Shown here in pieces: positions 2,780 through 52,994 of a stretch of DNA of 64,000 bases. The translations under genes were made by a program, and so were the position numbers. The notes under the pieces are model-generated. The model did not search any database. It saw only the letters and a list, made by a program, of their open reading frames with translations, and had not been told where the DNA came from. The stretch lies in contig NZ_CANLYI010000006.1 of assembly GCF_947495255.1 (NCBI RefSeq), forward strand, positions 248,001 to 312,000, in the 5' to 3' direction. Position 1 is the stretch's first letter; every line of letters starts with the position of its first letter. The DNA is from an uncultured Winogradskyella sp. Lineage in GTDB: Bacteria > Bacteroidota > Bacteroidia > Flavobacteriales > Flavobacteriaceae.

Positions 2780-3169
2780 TTATTGTTTTACTAAAAATTC
2801 AGCGCTAGTTTCTTGACAATTAACTCCAGAATCTAGACAAATGTAATTTTCATTAACCATTGCATTAAGAGTTCCTTCTTGTGTTTTAAGAATTAATACA
2901 GGATGAGAATATGTATACGTTCCGTTTATAATAGTATCATAAGTGCCATGATGACCATCAATATGTTGATAAGTGAATGCATTTTCTGTATTAAATTTGA
3001 AAATCAGTTGTTCAATACATCCTTCTGGTTTCGTGCATTTAAAAGTTTCAACACCAATCCAAGTTGTGTTAATCAATACATTAGAATTATCAATTATATC
3101 TTTATCTTTTTCACAATTAGTTAATAATAGTAAAACTAGCAATACTGTGATTATTTTTTTTATTTTCAT
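2780..3169 (-). CDS. Small lipoprotein, unknown function
   Basis: This 129-aa protein has a clear lipoprotein signal: a KIKK start, a leucine-rich core and a lipobox LLTNC with Cys19. The mature part is beta-rich, with cysteines at about 45, 51, 110 and 117 that could form disulfides. It looks like a small periplasm-facing or surface lipocalin/META-like barrel, but I do not assign a family. It lies between the esterase (3236-4630) and its fragment, with a candidate ECF promoter 21 bp upstream, so it may be made under envelope stress. Confidence 0.7.
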   Translation of the reverse strand: MKIKKIITVLLVLLLLTNCEKDKDIIDNSNVLINTTWIGVETFKCTKPEGCIEQLIFKFNTENAFTYQHIDGHHGTYDTIINGTYTYSHPVLILKTQEGTLNAMVNENYICLDSGVNCQETSAEFLVKQ

Positions 3170-7286: not shown

Positions 7287-8233
7287 TATTTGTATATTTC
7301 TAAAGTTGTTGAATAAATGTTTTCTTCAATATTATCACACAATTGGTGTTTGTTTGGATATAATAAATTTAAGCGGTCTTTTAAATTTTTTAGACCAATA
7401 CCAATGTTTTCTGATGATTCTTCAGCATCGTAATTATTTTTAACTGTGAAACTTATTTTTTTATCATCTTCAATAAGTTTTATATGAACAAATGCATTTT
7501 CAGTTGCTTTTTCAACACCATGCTTAAAGGCGTTTTCTAATAAGTTGATAAATAGTAAAGGCGCTATACTTGAATCTGAATTGTTTATGTTTTTTTCAAA
7601 ATTGATATCAATGTTTTTATGATATCTAGCTGTTTGTAAATCAATAAAGTTTATTAAATAGTCTATTTCATCTTTTAATTTTACACTTTCTTTACCACTA
7701 TCGTAAATGGTAAATCGCATTAAATCTGATAATTTTAAAACATAATCTTGTGCAGCATCGGCATCTTTTTTAATTAAGGAATATAAATTATTTAACGTAT
7801 TAAAGAAAAAATGAGGATTTATCTGATTTTTTAAAAGCATTAATTCTGCCTCCAATTTGTCACTTTTAAGTTTCTGAATGTTTTTTCGATATTTAAATAT
7901 CCAATAGAAAATTATATAACTAATTTCAAAAGCCAAAAGAATTCTAATGCCTTCTTTTAGGAAACCATCAGTTCCTGTAGTTACTTGTACACCGTAAATT
8001 AATAACGGAATACTAATTCCATAAAAAATATATTTTATGATTGGATTTGAAGCTCCAAATTTTACCTTTTCTGTTTGAAAGAGATAATATAAAATTGTGT
8101 AAAAGACCATTAATCCTAATAATCCAGTTAATACTGCGAAAATTTCACTTTGAGTGTTTCTTAATAGCACCATTAGTACAATGATGATTCCTGATAAAAT
8201 TCCAGCAGTTTTAAATAGTTTATTGTGTCTCAT
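7286..8233 (-). CDS. LytS-like sensor histidine kinase
   Basis: The kinase has four predicted N-terminal membrane helices (within about 20-125) and then the His_kinase dimerisation segment with the phospho-acceptor in NPHFFFNTLNNLY and an HATPase_c domain (NLLENAFKHG N-box, GIGLKNLKDRL G-box). The frame extends upstream to a TTG at 8263, but the ATG at 8231-8233 (MRHNKLFK) is the better start and gives 315 residues. It has no extracytoplasmic ligand domain, so it probably senses through its membrane part. It forms an operon with the response regulator. Confidence 0.9.
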   Translation of the reverse strand: MRHNKLFKTAGILSGIIIVLMVLLRNTQSEIFAVLTGLLGLMVFYTILYYLFQTEKVKFGASNPIIKYIFYGISIPLLIYGVQVTTGTDGFLKEGIRILLAFEISYIIFYWIFKYRKNIQKLKSDKLEAELMLLKNQINPHFFFNTLNNLYSLIKKDADAAQDYVLKLSDLMRFTIYDSGKESVKLKDEIDYLINFIDLQTARYHKNIDINFEKNINNSDSSIAPLLFINLLENAFKHGVEKATENAFVHIKLIEDDKKISFTVKNNYDAEESSENIGIGLKNLKDRLNLLYPNKHQLCDNIEENIYSTTLEIYK

Positions 8234-8463
8234 GTATTCTAAATGTTTATGATTTTGACACAAATCTATAGAGTGGTTTCAATGATTTTACTTTTATTTT
8301 ACAAACGCTCACTTTCATAATGTAAACAATCAAAATTTGATGATAAAGGTACTTTAAATATCATAAATAGATGTTTAACATTCTATAGTCTTACTTCATC
8401 AAAATAGTTATAAAACACAATTATTCAGTTCTAGGTTTGCATCAAATTTAAAACTTAATACAT

Positions 8464-9552
8464 ATGAAAACTTTAATTACAATTATTACAATGGCATTAT
8501 CGTCATTATTCGTAAATGCACAAATGACTTCCGAAAAGGAGATGCAAAAATCTTTAGATAATTCTATACCAGTTGCATTGAAAGAGAATAATGTTCCTGG
8601 TATGGCAATTGCAATTATTAAAAATGATCGAGTGATTATTAAGAAAGGTTATGGCTTTTCTAATGTTTCGCTTGGTGTAAAAGTTGATTCCAAAACTGGG
8701 TTTAATATTGGTTCCATCTCTAAAATGTTCACAGCTTGGGGAATTATGAAAATGGTAGAAGACGGAAAGATTGATTTAGACACACCTGTCTCAACTTATA
8801 TAACAAAATGGAAATTGCCAACCAGTAAATTTGATGAAGATAAAGTAACCATTAGAAATTTATTGCAACATACAGCTGGTTTATCTGTACATGGATATAA
8901 TGGTTACGAATCTAAAGAAGAACTGACATCTATTACTAAATCGCTATCTGGAAATAGCCGTGAAGAGGAAGCAGTAAAACTAATTATGGAACCTGAAAGT
9001 AAATGGCAATATTCTGGTGGAGGCTATTCTATATTACAACTTATTATCGAAGAAGTGAGTGGAGAAACATTTGGTGATTATATGCAGAAAAACATTTTCA
9101 AACCTTTAAAAATGAAGCATACTAGTTTTAATATCGATAAAAAAATATTGAAAAAATCGGCAAAAGCTTATGATGAAGAAGGAAATGAAATCCCATTACA
9201 GCTTTTCAATGCACAAGCTGCAGCTGGATTGCATACAACAATAGACGATCTTATTCTTTTTGCAAAAGCATCATTTTCAAAAAATACTGTGCTAACGGAA
9301 AAAAGTATTTCACTTTTAAGAACACCAACAGAATTGTCAAAAGGAAATTACGGAATGGGATATATGGAAATGAATCGTTTTGGAGATTTTACATTGCATG
9401 GTCATGGTGGGTCTAATGAAGGTTGGCATTCTGGATTTATGCTCGATTTTGAATCAAAATCTGGTATTATAATATTAACCAATGGCTCTTCAGGAAGGAA
9501 TGTTTTATTTGGAGGTTTGAAAGATTGGGCTCAATGGCATGGTAGCAATTAA
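8464..9552 (+). CDS. Secreted serine hydrolase, class C beta-lactamase fold
   Basis: This 362-aa protein has a signal peptide ending near FVNAQ (residue 20). The SxxK motif is GSISK with S84 and K87. The second motif is YSGGGY where the family usually has YxN, so the Asn is replaced by Gly. The KTG-equivalent is HGHGGSNEG near residue 315. Members of this family are esterases, D-aminopeptidases or penicillin-binding-like hydrolases rather than resistance enzymes. A shortened, decayed copy of its 3' half lies at 11543-11826. A second family member follows 99 bp downstream. Confidence 0.88.
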   Translation: MKTLITIITMALSSLFVNAQMTSEKEMQKSLDNSIPVALKENNVPGMAIAIIKNDRVIIKKGYGFSNVSLGVKVDSKTGFNIGSISKMFTAWGIMKMVEDGKIDLDTPVSTYITKWKLPTSKFDEDKVTIRNLLQHTAGLSVHGYNGYESKEELTSITKSLSGNSREEEAVKLIMEPESKWQYSGGGYSILQLIIEEVSGETFGDYMQKNIFKPLKMKHTSFNIDKKILKKSAKAYDEEGNEIPLQLFNAQAAAGLHTTIDDLILFAKASFSKNTVLTEKSISLLRTPTELSKGNYGMGYMEMNRFGDFTLHGHGGSNEGWHSGFMLDFESKSGIIILTNGSSGRNVLFGGLKDWAQWHGSN

Positions 9553-9651
9553 TTATATTTTATAATTAGCATCAAAGGAAATATAAAATCACATTATTTA
9601 TTTAAAACTCAAATACCGAATAACTTTCGGCAAGTAAAAAAACAATCAAAA

Positions 9652-10752
9652 ATGAAAACAAAATATTTATTACTCTATCTTTTTGCGTCCTCTATTAGTT
9701 TCGGGCAAATACATCCAAAAATCAGCTCACTAATTGAAGCGGAAATAAATGCAAATAAAGTACCTGCATTAGCGGTTGCAGTTATCGATTCTGGGAAAGT
9801 TGTACATATTAGTGCCAAAGGATTGAGAGATGTAAATTTAAAAAAAGAGGCTACTATAAACACACCTTTTCACATTGCATCTGTTTCTAAAACAGTAACC
9901 AATATGGCGGTATTTAAGTTGGTAGAATCTGGGAAAATTGATTTAAAAACAGATATTAATAATTATTTACCTTTTAAAGTTGAAAATCCTTTTTTCCCTG
10001 ATGAAAAAATAACTGTAGAACTTTTGCTGAAGCATAGAAGCGGAATTAAAGATAATATAAAGTTTTACGGACCTCACTGGAGCAACCCTAAAGGCGACCC
10101 TAAGATTAGCTTAGCGTATTTAAAAGATTATTTGGTTTCTGGTGGAAGTCTTTATAAAGAAAGTCACTATGATAATAAACCAAACCATAAATTGAATTTT
10201 AAATATTCTAACACAGGCATTGCATTACTGGGTTATATTGTTGAACAAGTGTCTGGAATGAATTATGAAGATTTTTGCCAACAACATATTTTCAAACCAA
10301 TGAAAATGAATAATTCAAGCTGGTTTCTAAAGAATTTAGATACTAGTTTAGTTGCCAAAACTTATGTTAAAAATAAGGCTAAAGAATTTATCTTTAAAGG
10401 TCATAACGGATATCCAGATTATCCTGGTGGACAATTAAGAACTTCTATTGTTGATTACACTACTTTAATTGCAGGTTTTTTAAATGCAGATGACAATAGT
10501 TTTATCTTAAAAAACGAAACTAAAAAAATGATTATCCCTTCAGTTAGCACGCCTCATTTAGGATATTATACTTGGTTTATAAAAGCAATAAACAACAATC
10601 TATATTACGAACATGGTGGAGGTGATACTGGTGTAAGAACAATTTCTATTATTGACCCAGATAAAAAAAGAGCTATCATCATTTTTGCAAACCACCCTTA
10701 TAATTTTGATGAATTATATAAATCCATAGAAATGGAAATGTGGGAGAACTGA
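9652..10752 (+). CDS. Secreted serine hydrolase, class C beta-lactamase fold (second copy)
   Basis: The 366-aa protein has a signal peptide ending near ISFGQ (residue 19). The active-site motif is ASVSK with S77 and K80, the second motif is KYSNTG (a canonical YxN) and the third is EHGGGDTG. It is related to, but clearly diverged from, the hydrolase at 8464, so the two are paralogues rather than a recent duplication. Its role is likely hydrolysis of an ester or amide outside the cytoplasm; the substrate is unknown. Confidence 0.88.
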   Translation: MKTKYLLLYLFASSISFGQIHPKISSLIEAEINANKVPALAVAVIDSGKVVHISAKGLRDVNLKKEATINTPFHIASVSKTVTNMAVFKLVESGKIDLKTDINNYLPFKVENPFFPDEKITVELLLKHRSGIKDNIKFYGPHWSNPKGDPKISLAYLKDYLVSGGSLYKESHYDNKPNHKLNFKYSNTGIALLGYIVEQVSGMNYEDFCQQHIFKPMKMNNSSWFLKNLDTSLVAKTYVKNKAKEFIFKGHNGYPDYPGGQLRTSIVDYTTLIAGFLNADDNSFILKNETKKMIIPSVSTPHLGYYTWFIKAINNNLYYEHGGGDTGVRTISIIDPDKKRAIIIFANHPYNFDELYKSIEMEMWEN

Positions 10753-10842
10753 ATCTGTAAGGAACTAATCTAAAACAAGAAAAAGATTGTTCAAGATAAA
10801 CTGTTGGCCAAAACAAAAAGTAATTATTAAAATTAGAACAAA

Positions 10843-11535
10843 ATGAATAAAAGTATCACACTTTCAAAAGCAGCTACAATAGCAGGATTAGGACTTCTAA
10901 TTATGACTTTAACGGTTCCTTTTGCTGAATTTAAAATAATTCCAGATTTAGTAAACCCAAATAGCGCATTAATAACTGCAGCTAACATTACTAATAATTC
11001 ATTCTTATTTAATGTCGCCATTTTTCTAATCTTTATAACAATCGTAGCAGATATTGTTGTAGCCTGGGCACTTTATATATTTTTAAAGCCTGTAAATAAA
11101 AGCCTATCATTACTAACAGCTTGGTTTCGATTATTATATACTGGAGTTTATCTGTTGGCAGTTACTAATTTGATAAAAGTATTTACCCTAACAAAAGGAA
11201 CTTCTTATTTTCTTTCAAATTCTCCACAACAAATTTCAGAATTTATGCTTTTTTATATTAAATCTTACAAATACGAATGGTTTTTAGGCCTGATTTTATT
11301 TGGTATTTATCTAATTCTTCTTGGATTTTTAGTACTAAAGGCAGACTATATCCCAAAAATATTGGGCTGGTTATTAATCATTGCAGGTATAGGTTACGTT
11401 GTTGGCCATTTAAAAGTGTTTTTGTTTCCCGATCTAAATACAAGCTTTAGTTTGTTTACCGCGTTGGGTGAACTAGTATTTATGCTTTGGCTTCTAATTA
11501 AAGGTTCTAGAATAAAAGAATTACAAATAAGTTAA
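10843..11535 (+). CDS. DUF4386-type integral membrane protein
   Basis: This is a 230-aa polytopic membrane protein with about six hydrophobic helices. Its order of features (an N-terminal KAATIAGLGLL helix, a long loop ending in NNSFLFN, then a helix with VADIVVAWALY and later WFRLLYTGVYL) matches what I remember of DUF4386 proteins. No catalytic motif is apparent. It follows the second serine hydrolase by 90 bp on the same strand and may be co-transcribed. Confidence 0.75.
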   Translation: MNKSITLSKAATIAGLGLLIMTLTVPFAEFKIIPDLVNPNSALITAANITNNSFLFNVAIFLIFITIVADIVVAWALYIFLKPVNKSLSLLTAWFRLLYTGVYLLAVTNLIKVFTLTKGTSYFLSNSPQQISEFMLFYIKSYKYEWFLGLILFGIYLILLGFLVLKADYIPKILGWLLIIAGIGYVVGHLKVFLFPDLNTSFSLFTALGELVFMLWLLIKGSRIKELQIS

Positions 11536-41758: not shown

Positions 41759-42625
41759 TTATTCTACATTTTTATTATATCCAAATAGTTTTAAAATTGA
41801 TAATTCGAACTTTTTTCTAAATGCAGCGAAAAGGCCTCCACTTATTGCTAAATAACCGAATAAGCCTAAAACGGCATTCAAATTATCTAAAAAAGCTTTC
41901 ACATCTTTATTTAGAGATACTAATACATATAAATAATAGACCGCTAACAATAAAAATAAAGAATAAATAAAACTTGAAAAAATCTTAATTCTTTTTTTAA
42001 ATCTAATTTCGAATGATTTAAGGAAATTATGTTCTTCTCTATTAGGGAATTCTTTAATTAAAGACAATATAGATTCAAAAGCCTTTAAAGAAATTATAAT
42101 ATGGAAGTCATTTTTATTTTCAAATAAGTTGGAATTATTTAAAATCGATTTATAAGTAAATTCCAAAATATCACTTGTAAGTTTACGTTCCTTAGTCAAG
42201 TATAAAAAAACGGTAACAATCTCTTGAACATTACTGTTACTTTGATAATTTTCATTTAATATATTTTCAAAAGTTGTTGAAATTGATGATTTAGTTCTTT
42301 TTCCAATCACCATTTTTATCCAATTCCTATCTACCTTAAAAATAAAAACAGCTAAGATAATTGAGAAAATCAGTAAGTCATTATGGATAAAAGGAGAATT
42401 CTCTGTCGGTATGCGCTTACTTATAACTTTATAGCAATCTTTGAAGTCTTTTCTGCTGTTCTTTATGACACTATTTATAATTCTATAATAGATTTCATCA
42501 ATTTCACTCAAATCAATACTTGAATACTTAAATTTTGAAAGTTGGAGTAATGAATAAAAAGCTAGAAGCTTTTCATTTTTAATTGCCTTTGTTAGATAAT
42601 TATTTTGTTCTTCTAAAGAAACCAT
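41759..42625 (-). CDS. Membrane protein paired with Argonaute, putative effector
   Basis: The 288-aa protein has a mostly helical soluble N-terminal part (about 1-205, with one short hydrophobic stretch at 84-97) and two clear membrane helices near the C-terminus: about 215-236 (SSFIYSLFLLLAVYYLYVLV) and about 250-269 (NAVLGLFGYLAISGGLFAAF). No enzymatic motif is seen. Its ATG lies 13 bp inside the end of the Argonaute gene, so the two are translationally coupled. In known inactive-pAgo systems a co-encoded membrane protein acts as the toxic effector; that role here is inference from context and topology. Confidence 0.72.
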   Translation of the reverse strand: MVSLEEQNNYLTKAIKNEKLLAFYSLLQLSKFKYSSIDLSEIDEIYYRIINSVIKNSRKDFKDCYKVISKRIPTENSPFIHNDLLIFSIILAVFIFKVDRNWIKMVIGKRTKSSISTTFENILNENYQSNSNVQEIVTVFLYLTKERKLTSDILEFTYKSILNNSNLFENKNDFHIIISLKAFESILSLIKEFPNREEHNFLKSFEIRFKKRIKIFSSFIYSLFLLLAVYYLYVLVSLNKDVKAFLDNLNAVLGLFGYLAISGGLFAAFRKKFELSILKLFGYNKNVE

Positions 42626-44925
42626 TTCTTTCTTTTTAATTTATAATTCAAACTATCAGGATCCCAACCTTCAACTTTTCTCATTTTACCTAATAACTTT
42701 GATATTAAATCCGAATATAACATTGATGCTGGTTTTTCGCCAGGTAAAAAACTTCTCCAAGATAAATAAGTAAAAGAATAAATTTGTTGAACAATATAAT
42801 TTAAATCTGTAAATAGCAATCTATCCAATTCTTTATCTTCAAAATTACCAGTTGGCATATGTATTTTTATCTGAATTGGATTACTCATACCATGTGTATG
42901 CATTTTCAATTCTCTGGCTCCTAACATTTGAACCAAGCACGTTGTAGAATCAAGAAAAATATTAGTTCCTCTTTTCGGTATATTTTCCCCTTTTAATTGT
43001 TTGCTATTATAACTAATAGGTACTCCTTTTTCATTCCCATCAAACATTTTATATGGATGTCTTTTACCAATTGTTACAAAGGCAAATTGAATCTTAAAAT
43101 CTTCGAATTTTTTGATTAAAGAACTAACAACATCATATTCGATGTTTTTAATTGGTTTAAATATGTGAAATATTAATCTTACTGTATCTCCCTTACTCCA
43201 ACCTTGTTCCGATTTTAATCTCTCAAAAGAATTTTCCAAACTAGAGAGTAATTCTTCAAAATAGTAATCATATTCAACATCTTTTACCTTATCACCGAGT
43301 AGATATTGACCATCACTAGACATAAACGTCGTTATACCCACAATCCTTTTTTGTTCAGCTCCTTTATATGTGTTTGCTCTTAGCCAACTATTTCCGATAC
43401 CAATTATCAACTCTCTATCGACAGACCTATTAGAAGGCAAAACCCATGGAGTACCACCAATTTTCGCATATAACTGAAGTGCTATTGAATTTAAAATATA
43501 GTCATTATGAGCTTTAATTTTACTTGTAGTTATAAATTGAACAGGGATTTCTAATGATAAAAGCTTTGCTTTTATACTATAATATGGATTATGCTCATCA
43601 TCTAAAATCCTGAATTCATTAGGGATTTCAATTATGGCTAAATCAGGTTTCATATCTAATTCACTTCTTATTATTGTATTATAGTTTTCAAATTGATAAG
43701 ATGTGATTTCATCTATTAACAAATTAACATTATGCAAATCATATTTCTTTTTGAATCCTTTTTTAAAATACTTTGAAGAAGGCAATCCATCAATTAAATT
43801 TGCTAAAAATGCAGTAAAACTACCTCTTATATCTTTATGACAAATACATAAAACATTAGGTGTTTTTATATCAAAATTCACGCTATCATAAGGACCAAAA
43901 TCATTTAGTCCTGAATCGGGACGATTATTTTTTGTTTTAATGCCAGCATGATCAAATATAAATGTAGGAACTCTCAAATTCATTGAATTCGTAGTTCTCT
44001 TTAATGAATTTTCAACAGTAAAACAAAAACCATCTTTGTTTTGAAATAGGATAGGTTGCTTATAACCTTTAGAAGAAACTCTTTCACTAAACAGTAAAGT
44101 TGCAATACTATTAATTTCTACGGATAATTTTTTCGCATTATATATTTCACTACGCTTTCCCTCTATTATTTCAAATATCTCTCTACTTTTAGTTTCAGAA
44201 ATACTGTATGTTAAATACTTTTCGATATTAGATTTATTTTTTTTTATAAATAATTCTTTCAAATCGACTTTGACAATTCCTTCATTAGTATCAACTAATG
44301 CTTTGTTTTTTTCTACAGCCTTTATAACACCTATGAATTCTTCATTAGGTGCCAAAATACTTTCTAAACCAGGAAAGATTTCCGACCTTAAAACCTCAAT
44401 GCCTATTAAATTAAACCCTTCTTCATTTAATTCAAAACATGATTTGGTAAATATCCAATTTCGCTTAATATTAATAATAAAACCAAATTGCTCCTTTCCG
44501 TCAACTTTCAATATTCTCAACTGAATCTCAATGAGCTTTTTATAGGCAATCTTATCTTTTAAATCGTCTGGAAGTAATCTATATATTACATTATCTTTTT
44601 CTTGTCTAGAAAAAAATCTAAATGGATAAAAATCTATAGGTTTAAGACTAGGAAACCTTTCTTTAAATGTTCTAAAAAACAAATGCTTTATTAAAGAGGA
44701 AGTGATTTTGAAATCATCATAGACACTCACTGTTTCTGTTTCTCCTAGTTTAACGTCTTCATCACCATCTTTATTAGAAATAAATAGTTCATCCCCATTT
44801 CTAAAAAATGAATGTGTATGATTATGTTTCCCTCTTAATTCCAATAATCTATCTTCGGAATAGGAGACTTTACTAATCTGATAATCTTCAAATTCAAAGT
44901 TTATTGGGTAAAAATTCAAATTCAT
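42613..44925 (-). CDS. Long prokaryotic Argonaute (PIWI protein), predicted catalytically inactive
   Basis: This 770-aa pAgo has an N-terminal region (about 1-270), a middle part, a MID domain (about 395-495) and a PIWI domain (about 500-770). MID carries a complete 5'-phosphate pocket pattern: Y448, K452, Q463 and K488 with the spacing known for Y-K-Q-K pockets. In PIWI, the first catalytic Asp position (after the IIGI strand) is G511 and the RDG-like position reads HIFKP (587-591), so the DEDX slicer tetrad is absent. KIGGTPWVLP and PASMLYSDL are typical flanking motifs. Length and loss of catalysis fit long-B pAgos, which use guides to recognise invading nucleic acid and activate a partner effector. 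Confidence 0.88.
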   Translation of the reverse strand: MNLNFYPINFEFEDYQISKVSYSEDRLLELRGKHNHTHSFFRNGDELFISNKDGDEDVKLGETETVSVYDDFKITSSLIKHLFFRTFKERFPSLKPIDFYPFRFFSRQEKDNVIYRLLPDDLKDKIAYKKLIEIQLRILKVDGKEQFGFIINIKRNWIFTKSCFELNEEGFNLIGIEVLRSEIFPGLESILAPNEEFIGVIKAVEKNKALVDTNEGIVKVDLKELFIKKNKSNIEKYLTYSISETKSREIFEIIEGKRSEIYNAKKLSVEINSIATLLFSERVSSKGYKQPILFQNKDGFCFTVENSLKRTTNSMNLRVPTFIFDHAGIKTKNNRPDSGLNDFGPYDSVNFDIKTPNVLCICHKDIRGSFTAFLANLIDGLPSSKYFKKGFKKKYDLHNVNLLIDEITSYQFENYNTIIRSELDMKPDLAIIEIPNEFRILDDEHNPYYSIKAKLLSLEIPVQFITTSKIKAHNDYILNSIALQLYAKIGGTPWVLPSNRSVDRELIIGIGNSWLRANTYKGAEQKRIVGITTFMSSDGQYLLGDKVKDVEYDYYFEELLSSLENSFERLKSEQGWSKGDTVRLIFHIFKPIKNIEYDVVSSLIKKFEDFKIQFAFVTIGKRHPYKMFDGNEKGVPISYNSKQLKGENIPKRGTNIFLDSTTCLVQMLGARELKMHTHGMSNPIQIKIHMPTGNFEDKELDRLLFTDLNYIVQQIYSFTYLSWRSFLPGEKPASMLYSDLISKLLGKMRKVEGWDPDSLNYKLKRKKWFL

Positions 44926-45245: not shown

Positions 45246-45368
45246 CTCCTGACGCCTAGCCAACCGCTCCATCAAAAAAATCAAAGCCAAACGATACGCA
45301 CTATCACTAAACCCAACAAATCTGTCAGAACCATCAGAATGGCCATTAGAAAAGTTTGTTTTTAATTG
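45246..45368 (-). pseudogene. Copy of the oligopeptidase 3' end (tail copy 1)
   Basis: About 120 bp match the last codons of the S9A gene (46572-46697). The translated piece keeps NFSNGHSDGSDRF, then SAYRLALIF, including the catalytic-His motif NGH. It lacks the rest of the gene. The upstream sequence is another flavobacterial-type intergenic repeat (TTCTCGATACATCC twice at 45379-45438). Confidence 0.85.
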
Positions 45369-45580
45369 TTTATAAGGTTCTCGATACATCCTGACGAAAA
45401 AGGTCGGGACACTTGAGCTGACGCAAAGGTTCTCGATACATTTATTAATTCTTCGTTGCACTTCGCATTAAGAAACACTCGAACTGACGTAGAGGGTTTT
45501 TGATATTTTATGGTGGAATGGTCTAACCACTCCAACTGACGATTGATATTTAAATGACCTTAAGGTTTAGAAACCTTTAA

Positions 45581-45703
45581 CTCCTTCGCTTTTCTCAATC
45601 GCTCCATCTCAAAAATCAAAGCCAAACGGTACGCACTATCCCTAAACCCAGCAAAACGGCCAGAACCACCAGAATGACCATTAGAAAAATCGGTTTTTAA
45701 GAG
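45581..45703 (-). pseudogene. Copy of the oligopeptidase 3' end (tail copy 2)
   Basis: A second match of about 120 bp to 46572-46697, with the NGH-SGGSGRF codons preserved. It ends in AAAACCGATTTTTC-like sequence corresponding to the KTDFS codons and then diverges. Confidence 0.85.
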
Positions 45704-45772
45704 TCTACGCTACTAAACCTCATTATAAAACAGCATCAAAGAAACAATAAAAAAGCAAACAGTCACCTCCTA

Positions 45773-45941
45773 CATTCCGATACAATCGGAAGCAACGATT
45801 TTCAGAAATAATGAGCTAAAAACAAAGTTAATTTACTCAATCAAGTATCAGCACTATTACTATCATAAAAACCTTAAATCACTAATTTATTAGCGAATGG
45901 TACCTCAGGTAATTTCCTAATAAATCGTTTTGATTTTTTGG
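45773..45941 (+). repeat. Hairpin-headed intergenic module, copy a
   Basis: A ~170-bp module begins with the hairpin TTCCGAT-ACA-ATCGGAA, continues GCAACGATTTTCAGAAATAA and ends near AATCGTTTTGATTTTTTGG. It occurs six times in full in this window, always beside the oligopeptidase gene or its tail copies. Confidence 0.85.
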
Positions 45942-46196
45942 GCAGCCTGTCCTGATCTCAGTCGAAGGGTTTGAAACAAGGCAAATGCGATAGCATTCAT
46001 AAACACCTATTTAATAAAATAGAAAAATAGTGCACTAAAATGAATAAACAATCAACACCCACATTCCAACATACTAAACTAATTACAATCAAAACGTTTG
46101 AATCAAGAACCTATTTCCCTTTATAATAGTATGAGAACAGCTAAGAAATAAACAATCAAAGAACAGAAACAACTACTAAGCAAACAATCACCACCA

Positions 46197-46366
46197 TATT
46201 CCGACAGCGTCGGAAGCAACGATTTTCAGAAATAATGAGCTAAAAATAAAGTTAATTTACCCAATCAAGTATTAGCACTATTACTATCATAAAAATCTTT
46301 GATCATTAATGCCTTAGCGAATGGTACCTTAGGTAATTTCCTAACAAATCGTTTTGATTTTTTGGT
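46197..46366 (+). repeat. Hairpin-headed intergenic module, copy b (compensatory change)
   Basis: Same module as at 45773, but the hairpin reads TTCCGAC-AGC-GTCGGAA (46199-46215). The T:A pair next to the loop is replaced by C:G on both sides, so pairing is preserved. Confidence 0.85.
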
Positions 46367-46568
46367 TCGTTTTGTATCAAGACAAAATGAACACATAAAC
46401 AATCAACTCCCTAACTCCGACATGTCACAGCATCATGAACTACCAAGCACATCATGAGTTCTTAAACAATAGAAAACAACGAATACAAATGCGATAGCAT
46501 TCATTAGCTCGTATTTAATAAAATAGAAACCTAGTGCACTAAAATGAATAAAGAAACAAGTAAAACAC

Positions 46569-49500
46569 CTACTCCTCAAGCCTAGCCAATCGATCCAACT
46601 CAAAAATCAAAGCCAAACGATACGCACTATCTCTAAAACCAGAAAAACGGCCAGAACCACCAGAATGGCCATTAGAAAAATCTGTTTTTAACAGCAACAC
46701 ATTATCATCAGTTTTAGTAGCTCTCAGTTTCGCTACCATTTTTGCAGGTTCCCAGTACCCTACTCTAGTATCATTAAGGCCTGTAAAAAACAACAAATTG
46801 GGATAGTTTTGCGCTTTTACATTATCATAAGGACTATAAGATTTAATGTACTGGTACTGCTTTTTGTTTTTAGGATTTCCCCATTCTTCAAACTCACCAA
46901 CGGTTAAAGGTAAATTTTCATCTAACATAGTATTAATCACATCTACAAAAGGAACGTCTAGAATGACGGTATTAAATAAATCTGGGCGTTCATTAACCAC
47001 TGCTCCCATTAATAAACCGCCTGCGCTTCCGCCAGAGGCAACAATACTGCCTGCTTTGGCATAATTTTCTGCGACTAAATAATCGGCACAGGCTATAAAA
47101 TCGGTGAATGTATTTTTCTTGTTAAACAGTTTACCGTCCTCATACCATTCTTTTCCCATGTCATCACCACCTCTAACATGTGCAATGGCATAGGTATAAC
47201 CTGAGTTTACCAAATGATGTACGGTTGGTCCGCCAGGAATCCCTTGACCAGAACCGTAAGAACCGTAAGAGGTTAAATACACCTTATGATTATTGTTTTT
47301 ATTAGAATTATACTTGTTTCTAATCAACGTCAACGGAATCAGTTTGCCATCTTTTGCCGTTACCCATTTGCGTTCTACCACATATTTAAAATACGGATGC
47401 GTAATGGGTTTGCTATGTTGCTTTACCAGTCGTTTCTTCTTGGTGCTCATGTGATAGTTATACGTGGTAGCTGGTGTTTCAAATGAACTATAACTAAATT
47501 GTAAGCTATCGGTGGCAAACTCTGGATTGTAACCCATACTAATATTATAAAAGTCTTCTTTCAGTTTAATGAAATGACTTTTTTGAGTGGTTTGGTTGAT
47601 GATTTTTAGTCGCGATTGTGCATTTTCTTTTTCATTAATCACGAGGTAATTATCAAACACTTGCAAATCTTGAATTAAAACGCCTTTTTGATGTGGAATG
47701 ACATCCGTCCATTTCCCTTTTGAAACGTCATCAGCATTAACCGTGGCAATTTTATAATTGAGCGCATTTTTATTGGTGACAATATAAAACAGGTCCTTAT
47801 AATGCGTAATTCCATATAAATGATTTTTTTCGCGTGGTCGAATCACTTTAAAGTCGCCTGTTGGGTTATCTGTTTTTAAGTACCACATTTCGGAAGATGT
47901 ACTGCTACTGGCACTTAAGAAAATATAAGCTTTAGACTTTGATTTCTGAATGCTAACACTAAACATTGGGTCTTTTTCCTCGTAAATAATAGTATCTGTT
48001 TTAGAATCGGTACCTAAGATATGACGCATCACTTTTGAAGCTCTATACGTCCCTTTTTCAATGTTGACGTAAAGAAAAGTCTCGTCGTCTAACCAAAGCA
48101 TACCACCAACACGACTAATAGAATCGGTTAAAAAAGTACGGTTGCTAAGGTCTTTTATTTTTAGCATATACGCATCAGTACCTGTGGTGTTTTCATACAC
48201 AGTAACTTTTTGATTATTTGGACTCACAGCACCTAAACGCGCATTGTAATAGTCTTTCTCTTTGGCTAATTCATTAACATTGAGTAATTCTTCGGGTATG
48301 GTATCATTGGCAACCGCTTTTCTGTAATAAATAGGATAGTCGTCATCTTCACTATACGAGGTGTAATAGACATAGCCATTCTTTTTAATGGGTAATGAGG
48401 TTGTGTTTTTTTCGATAGTATTAACCAATAGCTTGTAGATGTTCCGTTGTGCTTTTTTTAGTGGAATGATATAGTTGTCGGTGTATTTGTTTTCTTGGCG
48501 CAAATAATCCATTACTGGTTGATTGTTTTTAGGCGCTTTGGTATCCTTTAACCAGGCATAATTATCCGTATAAGTTTCACCATGTATCTTAAAACTAGAA
48601 GGCTTAATTTCAGCAATTGGTGCTGGCATAGAATCGTTTCGGATGTGCTTATCTCTAAATTGTTTTTCTAGGGTTTTCTCGAATTCCATATCGGTTCTAA
48701 TGGCTGTATCGATAGTTGCTAAAGGGTTTTTAGAGGTATAGTTGTCCCAGAATTTGGCATCGTAATCTAATGGGAATTCATACAACTGATTAGACATTGT
48801 ATTGGCAAAATTGTCGTCTCTCGCGAATTTCTTGACGTTTTGGGTGTTGATTGCTGTGGTCTTAAATTCCGAAATAGCAGAATAATACGTGGTGGCTAAA
48901 CTGATGCTGTCTTTATAGATAAACTCATCCTCATGTCTCATGTTATCAATGTAATACTGACTGCCTTTTTTCTTAAACCGAACGTCTAACTTGTAATCAA
49001 AGTGCTTTACTTGGTTGAATTTGTAACCACAGAAGTAGGCTTTCAGTTGGTTAGGCACCACACACTCATAGCGCACAATAGCCAAATCCTTTTGGTCGAT
49101 ATAAATTCTACCTTTTAATAATTTACGTTTGTTAGCCTTTAACCATTGCTTTCTGTTTCTAGGATTAGGTGATGCTAAATCGTCTAAATCTGCTTTGGTG
49201 GTTTTGGTATGAAAATCTAAAACGTATAACCAGTTACCTGTCTCGCTGTCTAGTTCTTCTGAAATGGTATAGTCGAAATCACGAATCGCTTTTTTACCGA
49301 GAAAACTCTGTTGGTATTTCACTCTATTTCTGGCAAACAACCCTAAAGGACCACCTTCAATATTCGCATGAAACTCGCGTTGACTCAGGCTACTACTAGA
49401 ACGTGAATTAATAATGTTCACCTGCTCCTCTTTTAAAGTTTGATGATGAAAGTGAATGCGATGTAAGGAATGATCACTAAAACTAAACGTACCACTGCTC

Positions 49501-50081
49501 ATTGAAAAATCATAAGGACTTTGGTAATCGCGCCATTTGTATTTCTTTTTACTGTAAGGCGCTTCGTAATAATCACAAGCAGCATCTGTGTATTTAATAT
49601 ACACACCATTTTCTTTCATCGTCTCACGATAATAACCAGAAAGTAAGGCTGGCGAACTGGTATAATTAGAAGGGATTTTCTTTATGGCTTTTCGCAATAA
49701 GGATTTAGCGCTAGGCAGTTTCTTTTGTTTCTCAACTAAAACTTCATCTAGTGAAACGGCTTCGGAGGTGAGATAAAAAATGCTTCCGGTTTTAGCTTTA
49801 AAAACCGAAATCTCTAAGGTTAAATCTTGAAAGCCTAAATAGCTTAGTGTAATGGTATGATTATCGTATTTTTTCGGAATAGTAATCTGGAATTTACCAT
49901 TACCATCCGTTACTGTACCCAAGGCAACTTGGTCTATTTTTAAATACGCATAAGGCAATGGCGAACCATCAGCTTTATCTACTATAGTCCCTTTAATAGT
50001 GGTTTGTGAAGTTGGGTTGTTTTGTGCGTTTGTAAGTGATGTGATAACTAATAACAAGGTTAAAAGCAGTCTTGATGTCAT
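46569..50081 (-). CDS. Fusion of CarboxypepD_reg-like surface protein and S9A oligopeptidase (oligopeptidase B-like)
   Basis: This 1170-aa protein is much longer than ordinary oligopeptidases (about 680-720). The signal peptide ends near LTNAQ (residue 20). Residues about 28-110 are a CarboxypepD_reg-like domain (IKGTIVDKADGSPLPYAYLKI), about 110-490 an uncharacterised beta-rich part found on Bacteroidota carboxypeptidase-regulatory proteins, and about 490-1170 an S9A propeller plus hydrolase. The triad is S1019 (GGSAGG), D1104 (GLNDTR) and H1139 (NGHSGG). It likely cleaves peptides in the periplasm or at the surface. Extra copies of its 3' end flank it on both sides. Confidence 0.87.
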   Translation of the reverse strand: MTSRLLLTLLLVITSLTNAQNNPTSQTTIKGTIVDKADGSPLPYAYLKIDQVALGTVTDGNGKFQITIPKKYDNHTITLSYLGFQDLTLEISVFKAKTGSIFYLTSEAVSLDEVLVEKQKKLPSAKSLLRKAIKKIPSNYTSSPALLSGYYRETMKENGVYIKYTDAACDYYEAPYSKKKYKWRDYQSPYDFSMSSGTFSFSDHSLHRIHFHHQTLKEEQVNIINSRSSSSLSQREFHANIEGGPLGLFARNRVKYQQSFLGKKAIRDFDYTISEELDSETGNWLYVLDFHTKTTKADLDDLASPNPRNRKQWLKANKRKLLKGRIYIDQKDLAIVRYECVVPNQLKAYFCGYKFNQVKHFDYKLDVRFKKKGSQYYIDNMRHEDEFIYKDSISLATTYYSAISEFKTTAINTQNVKKFARDDNFANTMSNQLYEFPLDYDAKFWDNYTSKNPLATIDTAIRTDMEFEKTLEKQFRDKHIRNDSMPAPIAEIKPSSFKIHGETYTDNYAWLKDTKAPKNNQPVMDYLRQENKYTDNYIIPLKKAQRNIYKLLVNTIEKNTTSLPIKKNGYVYYTSYSEDDDYPIYYRKAVANDTIPEELLNVNELAKEKDYYNARLGAVSPNNQKVTVYENTTGTDAYMLKIKDLSNRTFLTDSISRVGGMLWLDDETFLYVNIEKGTYRASKVMRHILGTDSKTDTIIYEEKDPMFSVSIQKSKSKAYIFLSASSSTSSEMWYLKTDNPTGDFKVIRPREKNHLYGITHYKDLFYIVTNKNALNYKIATVNADDVSKGKWTDVIPHQKGVLIQDLQVFDNYLVINEKENAQSRLKIINQTTQKSHFIKLKEDFYNISMGYNPEFATDSLQFSYSSFETPATTYNYHMSTKKKRLVKQHSKPITHPYFKYVVERKWVTAKDGKLIPLTLIRNKYNSNKNNNHKVYLTSYGSYGSGQGIPGGPTVHHLVNSGYTYAIAHVRGGDDMGKEWYEDGKLFNKKNTFTDFIACADYLVAENYAKAGSIVASGGSAGGLLMGAVVNERPDLFNTVILDVPFVDVINTMLDENLPLTVGEFEEWGNPKNKKQYQYIKSYSPYDNVKAQNYPNLLFFTGLNDTRVGYWEPAKMVAKLRATKTDDNVLLLKTDFSNGHSGGSGRFSGFRDSAYRLALIFELDRLARLEE

Positions 50082-50449
50082 AATTGGTCGATTGATTGAT
50101 ATAGATTACAATTGTAATTATACCAAATAAAACAGTTCTAATACCCTAATTAACATTTTGTTGTCATTTTAATTAGGGAATTAATAAGTAATTAACCAGG
50201 AAAATATTGATGTGTTTTTTACGTGTTTTGAACTATTTATGGAATGTGCTGGAAAAGGTTAGAATTAAACAATCAAAGAATAAAAACAACTACCAAGCAA
50301 ACAGTCACCTCCTACATTCCGATACAATCGGAAGCAACGATTATAAGTTATAAAAACAAGAACTTAAATGAATAGAACGACAACAAAATAAAGCTGAAAA
50401 GAAAAAACATAAATATTAAGCTGAAAGATAATTAACAAGCATCACCCAA
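50082..50449. other. Region upstream of the oligopeptidase gene
   Basis: No gene. The first ~230 bp are the presumed promoter region. A partial copy of the hairpin-headed module (50315-50343, hairpin plus GCAACGATT) follows, then AT-rich sequence. Confidence 0.5.
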
Positions 50450-50620
50450 ATTCCGATACAATCGGAAGCAACGATTTTCAGAAATAATGAGCTAAAAACA
50501 AAGTTAATTTACCTAATCAAGTATCAGTACTATTACTACAATAAAAACCCTAAATCATTAATGCCTTAGCGAATGGTACCTCAGGTAATTTCCTAACAAA
50601 TCGTTTTGATTATTTGGTTC
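50450..50620 (+). repeat. Hairpin-headed intergenic module, copy c
   Basis: Full copy of the 170-bp module with TTCCGAT-ACA-ATCGGAA. It is followed by GGTTCGTTTATTCGCTC, shared with copy e (51531-51700), and then by a GATAGCATT-type element like those near 45983, 46489 and 51975. Confidence 0.85.
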
Positions 50621-50776
50621 GTTTATTCGCTCTTACTAATTTTATGGAGCTCATGATGTGCTTCGCAGTTTGTATCAAGACAAATGCAATAGCATTCATA
50701 AACACCTATTTAATAAAATAGAAACATAGTGCACTAAAATGAACACATAAGCAAGAAAGACACCAATAGCCACCTA

Positions 50777-50870
50777 CTCCTCAACTCTAGCCAATCACTC
50801 CAACAAAAAAATAAAAGCCAAACGATAAGCACTATCTCTAAACCCAGCAAATCTGCCAGAACCACCAGAA
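50777..50870 (-). pseudogene. Copy of the oligopeptidase 3' end (tail copy 3)
   Basis: About 94 bp match the end of the S9A gene and stop at CCACCAGAA, just inside the codons for the His motif. Copies 3-6 all break at this same point and continue into the identical sequence TATATAAAC, so they were spread as one unit. Confidence 0.85.
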
Positions 50871-51038
50871 TATATAAACTTTTATAAAAACAGGATCAAA
50901 AATGGTCATAATGTGCAATAGATGCTCATTCGGGTTTGCGTCGGGTCAGCAGAATAAATAATTAGAAGGACACTATGCCTACCAAGTTTAGAAATAACTA
51001 ATCAAAGAAACAATTAAAAAGTAAACAAGCACCACCCA

Positions 51039-51210
51039 CATTCCGATACAATCGGAAGCAACGATTTTCAGAAATAATGAGCTAAAAATAAAGTTAATTG
51101 ACACAATCAAGTATTACCACTATTACTATCATAAAAACCTTAAATCATTAATGCCTTAGCGAATGGTACCTCAGGTAATTTCCTAACAAATCGTTTTGAT
51201 TTTTTGGTTC
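51039..51210 (+). repeat. Hairpin-headed intergenic module, copy d
   Basis: Full copy with TTCCGAT-ACA-ATCGGAA and the shared tail ending TTTTGATTTTTTGG. Differs from copies a and c by GACACAATCAAG in the middle, shared with e and f. Confidence 0.85.
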
Positions 51211-51266
51211 GTTTTGCATCAAGGCAAAATGAACACATAAACAAGAAAAACAACAATAGCCACCTA

Positions 51267-51360
51267 CACCTCAAGCCTAGCCAATCACTCCATCTCAAAA
51301 CTCAAAGCCAAACGATACGCACTATCTCTAAACCCAGAAAATCTCCCAGAACCACCAGAA
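51267..51360 (-). pseudogene. Copy of the oligopeptidase 3' end (tail copy 4)
   Basis: Matches the last ~94 bp of the S9A gene; breaks at the same CCACCAGAA point as copies 3, 5 and 6. Confidence 0.85.
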
Positions 51361-51530
51361 TATATAAACTCTTATAAAAACAGCATCAAAAATGGTCATA
51401 ATGTACAATAGGTGCTCATTCGGGTTTGCGTCGGGTCAGCAGAATAAATAATTTAGAAGGACACTATGCCTACCAAGTTTAGAAATAACTAATCAAAGAA
51501 ACAATTAAAAAATAAACAAGCACCACCCAC

Positions 51531-51700
51531 ATTCCGATACAATCGGAAGCAACGATTTTCAGAAATAATGAGCTAAAAATAAAGTTAATTGACACAATCA
51601 AGTATTAGCACTATTACTATCATAAAAACCTTAAATCACTAATTTATTAGCGAATGGTACCTCAGGTAATTTCCTAACAAATCGTTTTGATTTTTTGGTT
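51531..51700 (+). repeat. Hairpin-headed intergenic module, copy e
   Basis: Full copy; its ACTAATTTATTAGCG variant is shared with copy a, while the other copies read ATTAATGCCTTAGCG. A diverged partial copy follows at about 51838-51888, where the hairpin sequence is damaged (CCGATATATACAATAAGAA). Confidence 0.82.
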
Positions 51701-52066
51701 CGTTTATTCGCTCTTACTAATTTTATGGAGCTCATGATGTGCTTCGCAGTTTGCATCAAGGCAAAATGAATAGATAAAAGAGCAACTACCATACTCCAAG
51801 ATATCAAACACAGCAATCATTCACGAATTCCGATATATACAATAAGAATCCATGAGTATTTCCTAACATATCGTTTTGATTTTTTGGGCAGCCTGTCCTG
51901 AGCATTACTGAAATGAAAATATATTTTCATTGAAAGTACCTTGTGCAACAAGTCGAAGGGTTTGTATCATGACAAATGCGATAGCATTCATAAACACCTA
52001 TTTAATAAAATAGAAACATAGTGCACTAAAATGAATAAAGAAACAAGAAAAACACCAATAGCCACC

Positions 52067-52162
52067 TACACCTCAAGCCTAGCCAATCACTCCATCTCAA
52101 AACTCAAAGCCAAACGATACGCACTATCTCTAAACCCAGAAAATCTGCCAGAACCACCAGAA
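52067..52162 (-). pseudogene. Copy of the oligopeptidase 3' end (tail copy 5)
   Basis: Matches the last ~95 bp of the S9A gene and ends at the common CCACCAGAA break. Confidence 0.85.
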
Positions 52163-52331
52163 TATATAAACTCTTATAAAAACAGCATCAAAAATGGTCA
52201 TAATGTGCAATAGGTGCTCATTCGGGTTTGCGTCGGGTCAGCAGAATAAATAATTAGAAGGACACTATGCCTACCAAGTTTAGAAATAACTAATCAAAGA
52301 AACAATTAAAAAGTAAACAAGCACCACCCAC

Positions 52332-52500
52332 ATTCCGATACAATCGGAAGCAACGATTTTCAGAAATAATGAGCTAAAAATAAAGTTAATTGACACAATC
52401 AAGTATTAGCACTATTACTATCATAAAAACCTTAAATCATTAATGCCTTAGCGAATGGTACCTCAGGTAATTTCCTAACAAATCGTTTTGATTTTTTGGT
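52332..52500 (+). repeat. Hairpin-headed intergenic module, copy f
   Basis: Full copy, nearly identical to copy d. A partial copy follows at 52859-52903, where homology ends at AAATAATGAGC. Confidence 0.85.
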
Positions 52501-52546
52501 TCGTTTTGCATCAAGGCAAAATGAACACATAAGCAAACAAATCACC

Positions 52547-52642
52547 TACTCCTCAAGCATAGCCAATCACTCCATCTCAAAACTCAAAGCCAAACGATAA
52601 GCACTATCTCTAAACCCAGCAAATCGGCCAGAACCACCAGAA
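52547..52642 (-). pseudogene. Copy of the oligopeptidase 3' end (tail copy 6)
   Basis: Matches the last ~95 bp of the S9A gene. The following block has the TCGGGT element expanded (TCGGGTTTGCGTCGGGTC, then further TGCGTCGG copies at 52700-52752), a small slippage-type repeat. Confidence 0.83.
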
Positions 52643-52994
52643 TATATAAACTCTTATAAAAACAGCATCAAAAATGGTCATAATGTACAATAGGTGCTCC
52701 TTCGGGTTTGCGTCGGGTCTCCTTCGGGTATGCGTCGGATATGCGTCGGGTCAGCTATAGTAAATTCCTACAAAGAATAAAGGATTAGAAGACACTATGA
52801 CACCAAGTAGGAAATGACTAACCAAAGAAACAATAAAAAAGTAAACAAGAACCACCACATTCCGATACAATCGGAAGCAACGATTTTCAGAAATAATGAG
52901 CAATAATCATTATTATTAATTCAAATCTAGGATCGGAACTCATATATCCATTACAACTATAAAACACCCTAATCTCCACTATTGACTGTTTATT

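Follow-up and report, generated by a model that had tools for sequence, protein, structure and literature searches.

The 3' end of an S9A prolyl-oligopeptidase gene in an uncultured Winogradskyella sp. recurs six times around the gene, and the resulting array probably grew out of a dispersed, folded repeat, termed B, through tandem duplication and recombination, with the 3' end of the gene lying within the duplicated unit. The window (the whole stretch of 64,000 nucleotides analyzed here, positions 248001-312000 of its contig) comes from a 4.21-Mb draft assembly in 47 contigs. The part of the array repeated most often is the ~160-nt B module, not the gene tail.

Gene ends and repeat units in the window

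The features of the array are as follows, in order of position.

45246..45365, minus strand: T1, relic 3' end, 75% identity (tblastn)
45369..45489, no strand assigned: REP-like hairpin repeats between T2 and T1
45560..45703, minus strand: T2, displaced native 3' terminus, KELKVSKP then stop, without a premature stop (tblastn match 45581-45703, 83%)
45774..45933, plus strand: B long form, copy 1, 168.9 bits
46198..46357, plus strand: B long form, copy 2, 177.8 bits
46569..50081, minus strand: S9A prolyl-oligopeptidase gene (P0001), 1170 aa, intact frame, array-type terminus LARLEE then stop
50450..50609, plus strand: B long form, copy 3, 171.9 bits
50777..50872, minus strand: T3, tail relic with premature TGA (tblastn)
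51040..51199, plus strand: B long form, copy 4, 170.8 bits
51270..51362, minus strand: T4, tail relic with premature TGA (tblastn)
51363..51530, minus strand: X segment, joined to a tail, with further copies at about 50873-51039, 52165-52331 and 52645-52857
51531..51690, plus strand: B long form, copy 5, 170.4 bits
52072..52164, minus strand: T5, tail relic with premature TGA (tblastn)
52332..52491, plus strand: B long form, copy 6, 173.0 bits
52549..52644, minus strand: T6, tail relic with premature TGA (tblastn)
52859..52994, plus strand: partial B at the outer array edge, 72.5 bits, with just the first ~45 nt matching well

The S9A protein has Peptidase_S9_N and Peptidase_S9 domains and an N-terminal CarboxypepD_reg-like domain. 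A tblastn search of the window with the 1170-aa sequence returns six additional 3'-end copies (E 4e-9 to 2e-15), confirming the original prediction that extra gene ends flank the gene. All are oriented as the gene is, with T1 and T2 located downstream and T3-T6 upstream, and the gene body is absent from all six. T3-T6 are 78-84% identical to the S9A protein, and T1 and T2 extend ~25 nt deeper into the gene than these four. A premature TGA at tail codon 25 is common to T3, T4, T5 and T6, and no in-frame start was found upstream of them. T1 is free of a premature stop, with an open frame of 72 codons counted irrespective of an ATG start. The tail copies are mostly relics. In the search of the whole genome that had been proposed with the prediction, the tail query gives seven matches among the 12 candidates scored, every one inside the window.

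The break in T3-T6 falls each time at CCACCAGAA, beyond which one common segment, X, follows, just as predicted for four of the copies. The predicted unit length of ~480-490 bp describes two of the successive T3-T6 intervals (490 and 480 bp); the one between them is 802 bp. The units at 50872-51361, 51362-51705 and 52164-52643 have mutual identities of 95.7, 96.8 and 98.0%. Within the genome both the tail and X are found solely in this array, and outside the array X gave just three matches of 23-31 bp, in two genomes, when 68 genomes of the genus were searched. X might be a remnant of the region upstream of the S9A gene, but it is similar to that region over 50-60 bp only, which may represent a B-linked flank. 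The caveat attached to the prediction, that the units might be unrelated intergenic repeats, can be dismissed in the case of the tails and is true of B. A MITE would have terminal inverted repeats and a target-site duplication; in the 43-56 kb region of the window no inverted repeats of at least 40 nt were detected.

Two kinds of terminus are distinguished by only about the last ten residues. Several orthologs, T2 and the relic in genome G032 have a KELKVSKP-like end, and the intact S9A gene, T1 and T3-T6 have a LARLEE-like end. Over 215 bp T2 and its downstream flank are 87% identical to the gene end of the G062 ortholog, identifying T2 as the native terminus of the S9A gene. The intact gene itself ends in the array-type manner and, as judged by eye, has a mosaic tail, suggesting that this tail was swapped with an array copy by recombination. 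The stretch comprising two REP-like repeats and T1, with the repeats on the 5' side of T1, is colinear with the relic in G002 (82% over 258 bp). T1 would then be older than the split from G002, or else have been exchanged. The G002 relic has a TGA at the tail codon that is the premature stop in T3-T6.

Several gene relics have REP-like hairpins of the type GGTTCTCGATACATCCCGAC..GTCGGGACACTCGAACTGACG at their cut end or close to it (window 45369-45489, L061, L106 and L107). The repeat field adjoins a gene on the minus strand (42613-44925) for a 770-aa Argonaute-like protein in which a Piwi domain is recognized (PF02171, E 6.8e-18); a 288-aa frame overlaps the end of this gene.

Gene-end relics across Winogradskyella

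A 201-bp tail query was searched against 68 genomes of the genus with 12 candidates scored per genome, finding nine intact genes, the six extra copies described above and relics in six genomes (6/68, own genome aside: G016, G032, G014, G055, G002 and G018). Two very short weak matches, in G001 and at G050:C4, were set aside, and S9 paralogs gave weak matches in other genomes. Several relics resemble the gene end of another genome together with its 3' flank, G016 being 94% identical to the G040 gene end over 911 bp, G018 82% identical to G019 over 858 bp and G014 82% identical to G062 over 251 bp. The G032 and G002 relic loci have a common 5' flank (86% over 785 bp). G032 has a native-type tail (92% to G062 over 226 bp) and G002 an array-type one, so the two loci do not resolve cleanly into one ancestral relic. 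Starting positions within the gene vary among the relics (nt 3158, 3313, 3331, 3359, ~3390, ~3416 and 3445). Most relics appear to be scars of gene loss at former gene sites, with exchange of tails. There are two S9A gene lineages, and the relics group loosely with the lineage of the window's S9A gene, on ~100 columns with weak support; the species tree was built from one gene, a paralogous one.

Queries from other parts of the gene (5' 1382 bp, 5' 201 bp and internal 201 bp) recovered no relic, giving only chance-size matches of 35 and 21 bp. With the 1382-bp query five candidates were scored in each genome, the 5' 201-bp query recovered 6/9 intact genes, and the result of the internal query, which also has rows matching S9 paralogs, applies to the rows inspected. 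An internal S9A fragment (gene nt 2809-2939, 67% protein identity) lies at L059:4859-5025 in G005, ~3.3 kb from the intact gene. The relics are 3' ends in all six of the other genomes; a strict 3'-end bias in gene loss is not claimed, as it is undercut by G032 and G002 being one locus, by the 6/9 recovery of the 5' control and by the G005 fragment. In G055 the relic tail starts 6 bp past the stop (L105:4593-4599) of a 306-aa gene, which we take from its sequence to be an NAD kinase, and in G060 a ~110-bp piece of this gene follows the S9A gene.

B arrays and the origin of the copied gene ends

B is not confined to the window. The genome has 12 matches to a covariance model built from 26 long-form copies, and a 201-bp B DNA query matches 55/68 genomes of the genus, many of the matches being partial. 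The same model, applied at E up to 0.001 with strict filters, finds B in 27/249 genomes of the family, covering 25/235 genera with Winogradskyella included. A window copy of B has no match in phage and plasmid collections, and a 25-base B core has no exact match in viral contigs; B as phage or plasmid cargo is rejected on these grounds.

A second array with copied gene ends occurs in G033. Ten B loci of a first set (L140-L149) were examined for coding copies; nine have none and L144 has three matches, all to the 3' end of an NYN/OST-HTH gene at 10264-11025 (minus strand). The gene end recurs at 9521-9668 (87%), ~8616-8752 and 8192-8264, in each case beginning at gene nt 623 of 762. The three tails are downstream of the gene and on its strand, fitting tandem duplication of the gene end plus B, and they lie between B copies that, like those in the window, are antisense to the gene. 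Among 20 further stretches (L209-L228), 19 contain B, in no case with a gene tail in the repeat; two coding matches in L217 are due to B overlapping the called start of a frame. Gene tails within the array are therefore seen at 2/30 B-bearing loci examined, the window and L144. In G011 the frame at 3856-5013 of L210 (minus strand) has its final 71 nt copied, at 85% identity, ~700 bp downstream (L210:3108-3178), with B absent within 2.5 kb.

The original prediction offered repeated gene conversion or unequal crossing-over as one explanation, and this fits the 96-98% identity of the units, the mosaic tail and the displaced native terminus. Recombination between direct copies of B, and of the tails, would have amplified the gene end together with B. 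The four tails with the same break would be copies of one unit whose tail had already decayed, T1 would be an older relic, and T2 would have been displaced when the S9A gene swapped tails with an array copy. A simple downstream duplication is countered by the four tails upstream of the present gene, and for this reason a second copy of the S9A gene, its body since lost, is proposed as the simplest source of the upstream tails. The lack of a premature stop in T1 and T2 also speaks against this account, as does the finding of gene tails at just 2/30 B-bearing loci.

The other explanation offered, a repeat that carries gene tails, is borne out in part by the L144 array with its NYN tails; the copies are found only beside their own gene. 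In its mobile form this explanation would have a non-autonomous element capture the 3' end of a neighbor and then insert or amplify as B plus tail. The dispersal of B through most of the genus is in line with it, as are tails with a common break joined to antisense B in two species, each time at a different, unrelated gene. Against this, tail and X do not leave the array in this genome, and 28/30 B-bearing loci have no gene tail in the repeat. B and the REP/RAYT systems share hairpins in many copies, but PF01797 (Y1_Tnp) has a single match in the genome, to a 532-aa frame at 28 bits (cut-off 23), and mobilization of B by a RAYT is not favored. We regard mobile capture as unlikely, and local tandem duplication as the better account because the tail copies adjoin only their own gene.

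An assembly artefact, in which repeats were collapsed or duplicated, has very little probability. The assembly is a draft and the ~490-bp units are longer than short reads; the copies differ from one another and are separated by unlike inserts, T1 has a counterpart in another genome, and the similar array in G033 (L144:8192-10264) is in an assembly of one contig. The chance is similarly small that the tails are silent cassettes serving as gene-conversion donors that rewrite the S9A C terminus. The array-type terminus of the gene and its displaced native end are what such cassettes would leave, but the stop precedes the terminus in T3-T6, the differences are limited to about the last ten residues, and tail and X searches detect no array in the other eight genomes with an intact gene. 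Slimmest of all is the case for an integrating element that uses the S9A 3' end as its attachment site and leaves footprints, for which T2 and the new gene terminus would be expected, since the relic start points differ, no common att core is present at the junctions and some of the tails are found on the upstream side of the gene.

Tandem duplication and recombination of B with the gene end resembles a tandem pseudogene relic array, a class that arises by unequal crossing-over between direct repeats, in having same-strand tandem units 96-98% alike and relics with a common lesion. The copies are homologous to a nearby functional gene, and T3-T6 carry the disabling TGA. The difference is that in the window neither a gene nor plain DNA but a conserved folded element makes up the backbone.

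Fold and operon settings of B

Over the 26 long-form copies, 99.4% of the cells in the 26 base pairs of B are standard, and 23 cells show a two-sided change compared with 5.6 after shuffling. In this set two other measures are not above chance, namely pairs with a two-sided change (3 compared with 1.9, a level reached by 112/500 shuffles) and further pair types (7 compared with 8.4). For 89 B matches (88 distinct), in an alignment that was fitted to the structure and so leans towards the B fold, two-sided changes are found in 18/26 pairs compared with 9.0 shuffled (0/500 as high) and in 7/8 pairs of the long-range helix. A compact form of B, ~128 nt, lies between operon genes. Twenty copies of this short form, aligned with MAFFT and folded afresh with RNAalifold, show two-sided changes in 22/42 pairs compared with 11.4 shuffled (0/500 as high) and 41 further pair types compared with 38.1 (56/500), and sliding the pair partners abolishes the covariation signal. 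G-U cells outnumber A-C cells, the cells not being independent, by 25:7 in the short form, 8:1 in A2 and 53:26 in A3, and less strongly (41:23) in the long copies of A3. This excess points to an RNA of the given B strand. An Rfam scan at E up to 1, covering 44.5-53.5 kb of the window together with 13 loci, gives no match at B, which has the look of a structured RNA that is uncatalogued.

In the genome that contains the window, the short form is present in the trp operon between trpE and trpG, trpG and trpD, and trpF and trpB, and once more in a kynurenine operon, where it separates a KMO-like from a RidA-like gene. We assigned the names trp, kynureninase and KMO from sequence and gene order in this genome. 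The three trp copies are placed between the later genes (L062: 10703-11692, 7875-8004). The Bacteroid-trp leader, RF01692, matches upstream of trpE at L062:13240-13359 (cmscan). Both elements are structured and belong to the trp operon of Bacteroidetes, but RF01692 is upstream of trpE whereas B lies between later trp genes and has no RF01692 match by cmscan.

In all, 41 short copies were considered, made up of 21 and a further 20 covariance-model matches of 113-131 nt, with a truncated copy at L187 (ZnuA operon) and a 180-nt copy at L172 left out. Operon genes in other genomes were matched to the proteins of the own genome by tblastn. Trp operons hold 23 of the 41 copies, in 11 genomes; five of these 23 come from G220 contig ends that are 90-95% alike, and at least one is possibly counted twice. 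In G220 tandem short B elements are located upstream of trpD at a contig end (L171:49-768), and two more are around trpG on another contig (L207:48-1229), the contig ends being alike. The remaining copies are between KMO and RidA genes (2), in ZnuA-type metal ABC operons (6), between PTPS and phosphoesterase genes (2) and at other places (8, with the flanking genes of L144:97-227, L191 and L194 unscanned). A tryptophan-specific role of B is rejected, given the six metal ABC copies, the two beside a tetrahydropterin synthase gene and the eight elsewhere.

Both flanking frames, called mechanically, are co-directional with the short B in 34/41 cases. The exceptions are L191, where both frames are opposite, L194, where they are convergent, and five copies with a flank that is missing or with short spurious frames abutting. 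The orientation of the long form is mixed, both flanks being co-directional in 10/35 spacers. The short form is most likely an RNA element in operon transcripts and the long form one that has multiplied between genes. On the sense strand the short form may control how strongly the following gene is expressed.

ERIC/IRU, BOX and REP/BIME are short, folded, non-coding dispersed repeats that at times occur in operons and arrays. B is like them in these general features and differs in that its short form recurs between the same operon genes across genera, mostly in the sense orientation. Searches of open-access text found no paper on B, and passages of PMC9723704 and PMC2864571 name no B-like element. 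On balance we lean towards B being an undescribed structured RNA family of the Flavobacteriaceae, with an operon form and an intergenic form whose arrays recurrently copy the ends of neighboring genes.

The tails show how repeat arrays may copy and exchange gene ends, and the NYN case suggests that such copying is a habit of B arrays and not a single accident. The B backbone matters more than the tails, as an RNA of functional appearance with the behavior of a genomic repeat besides, and as a ready test case for control within operons.
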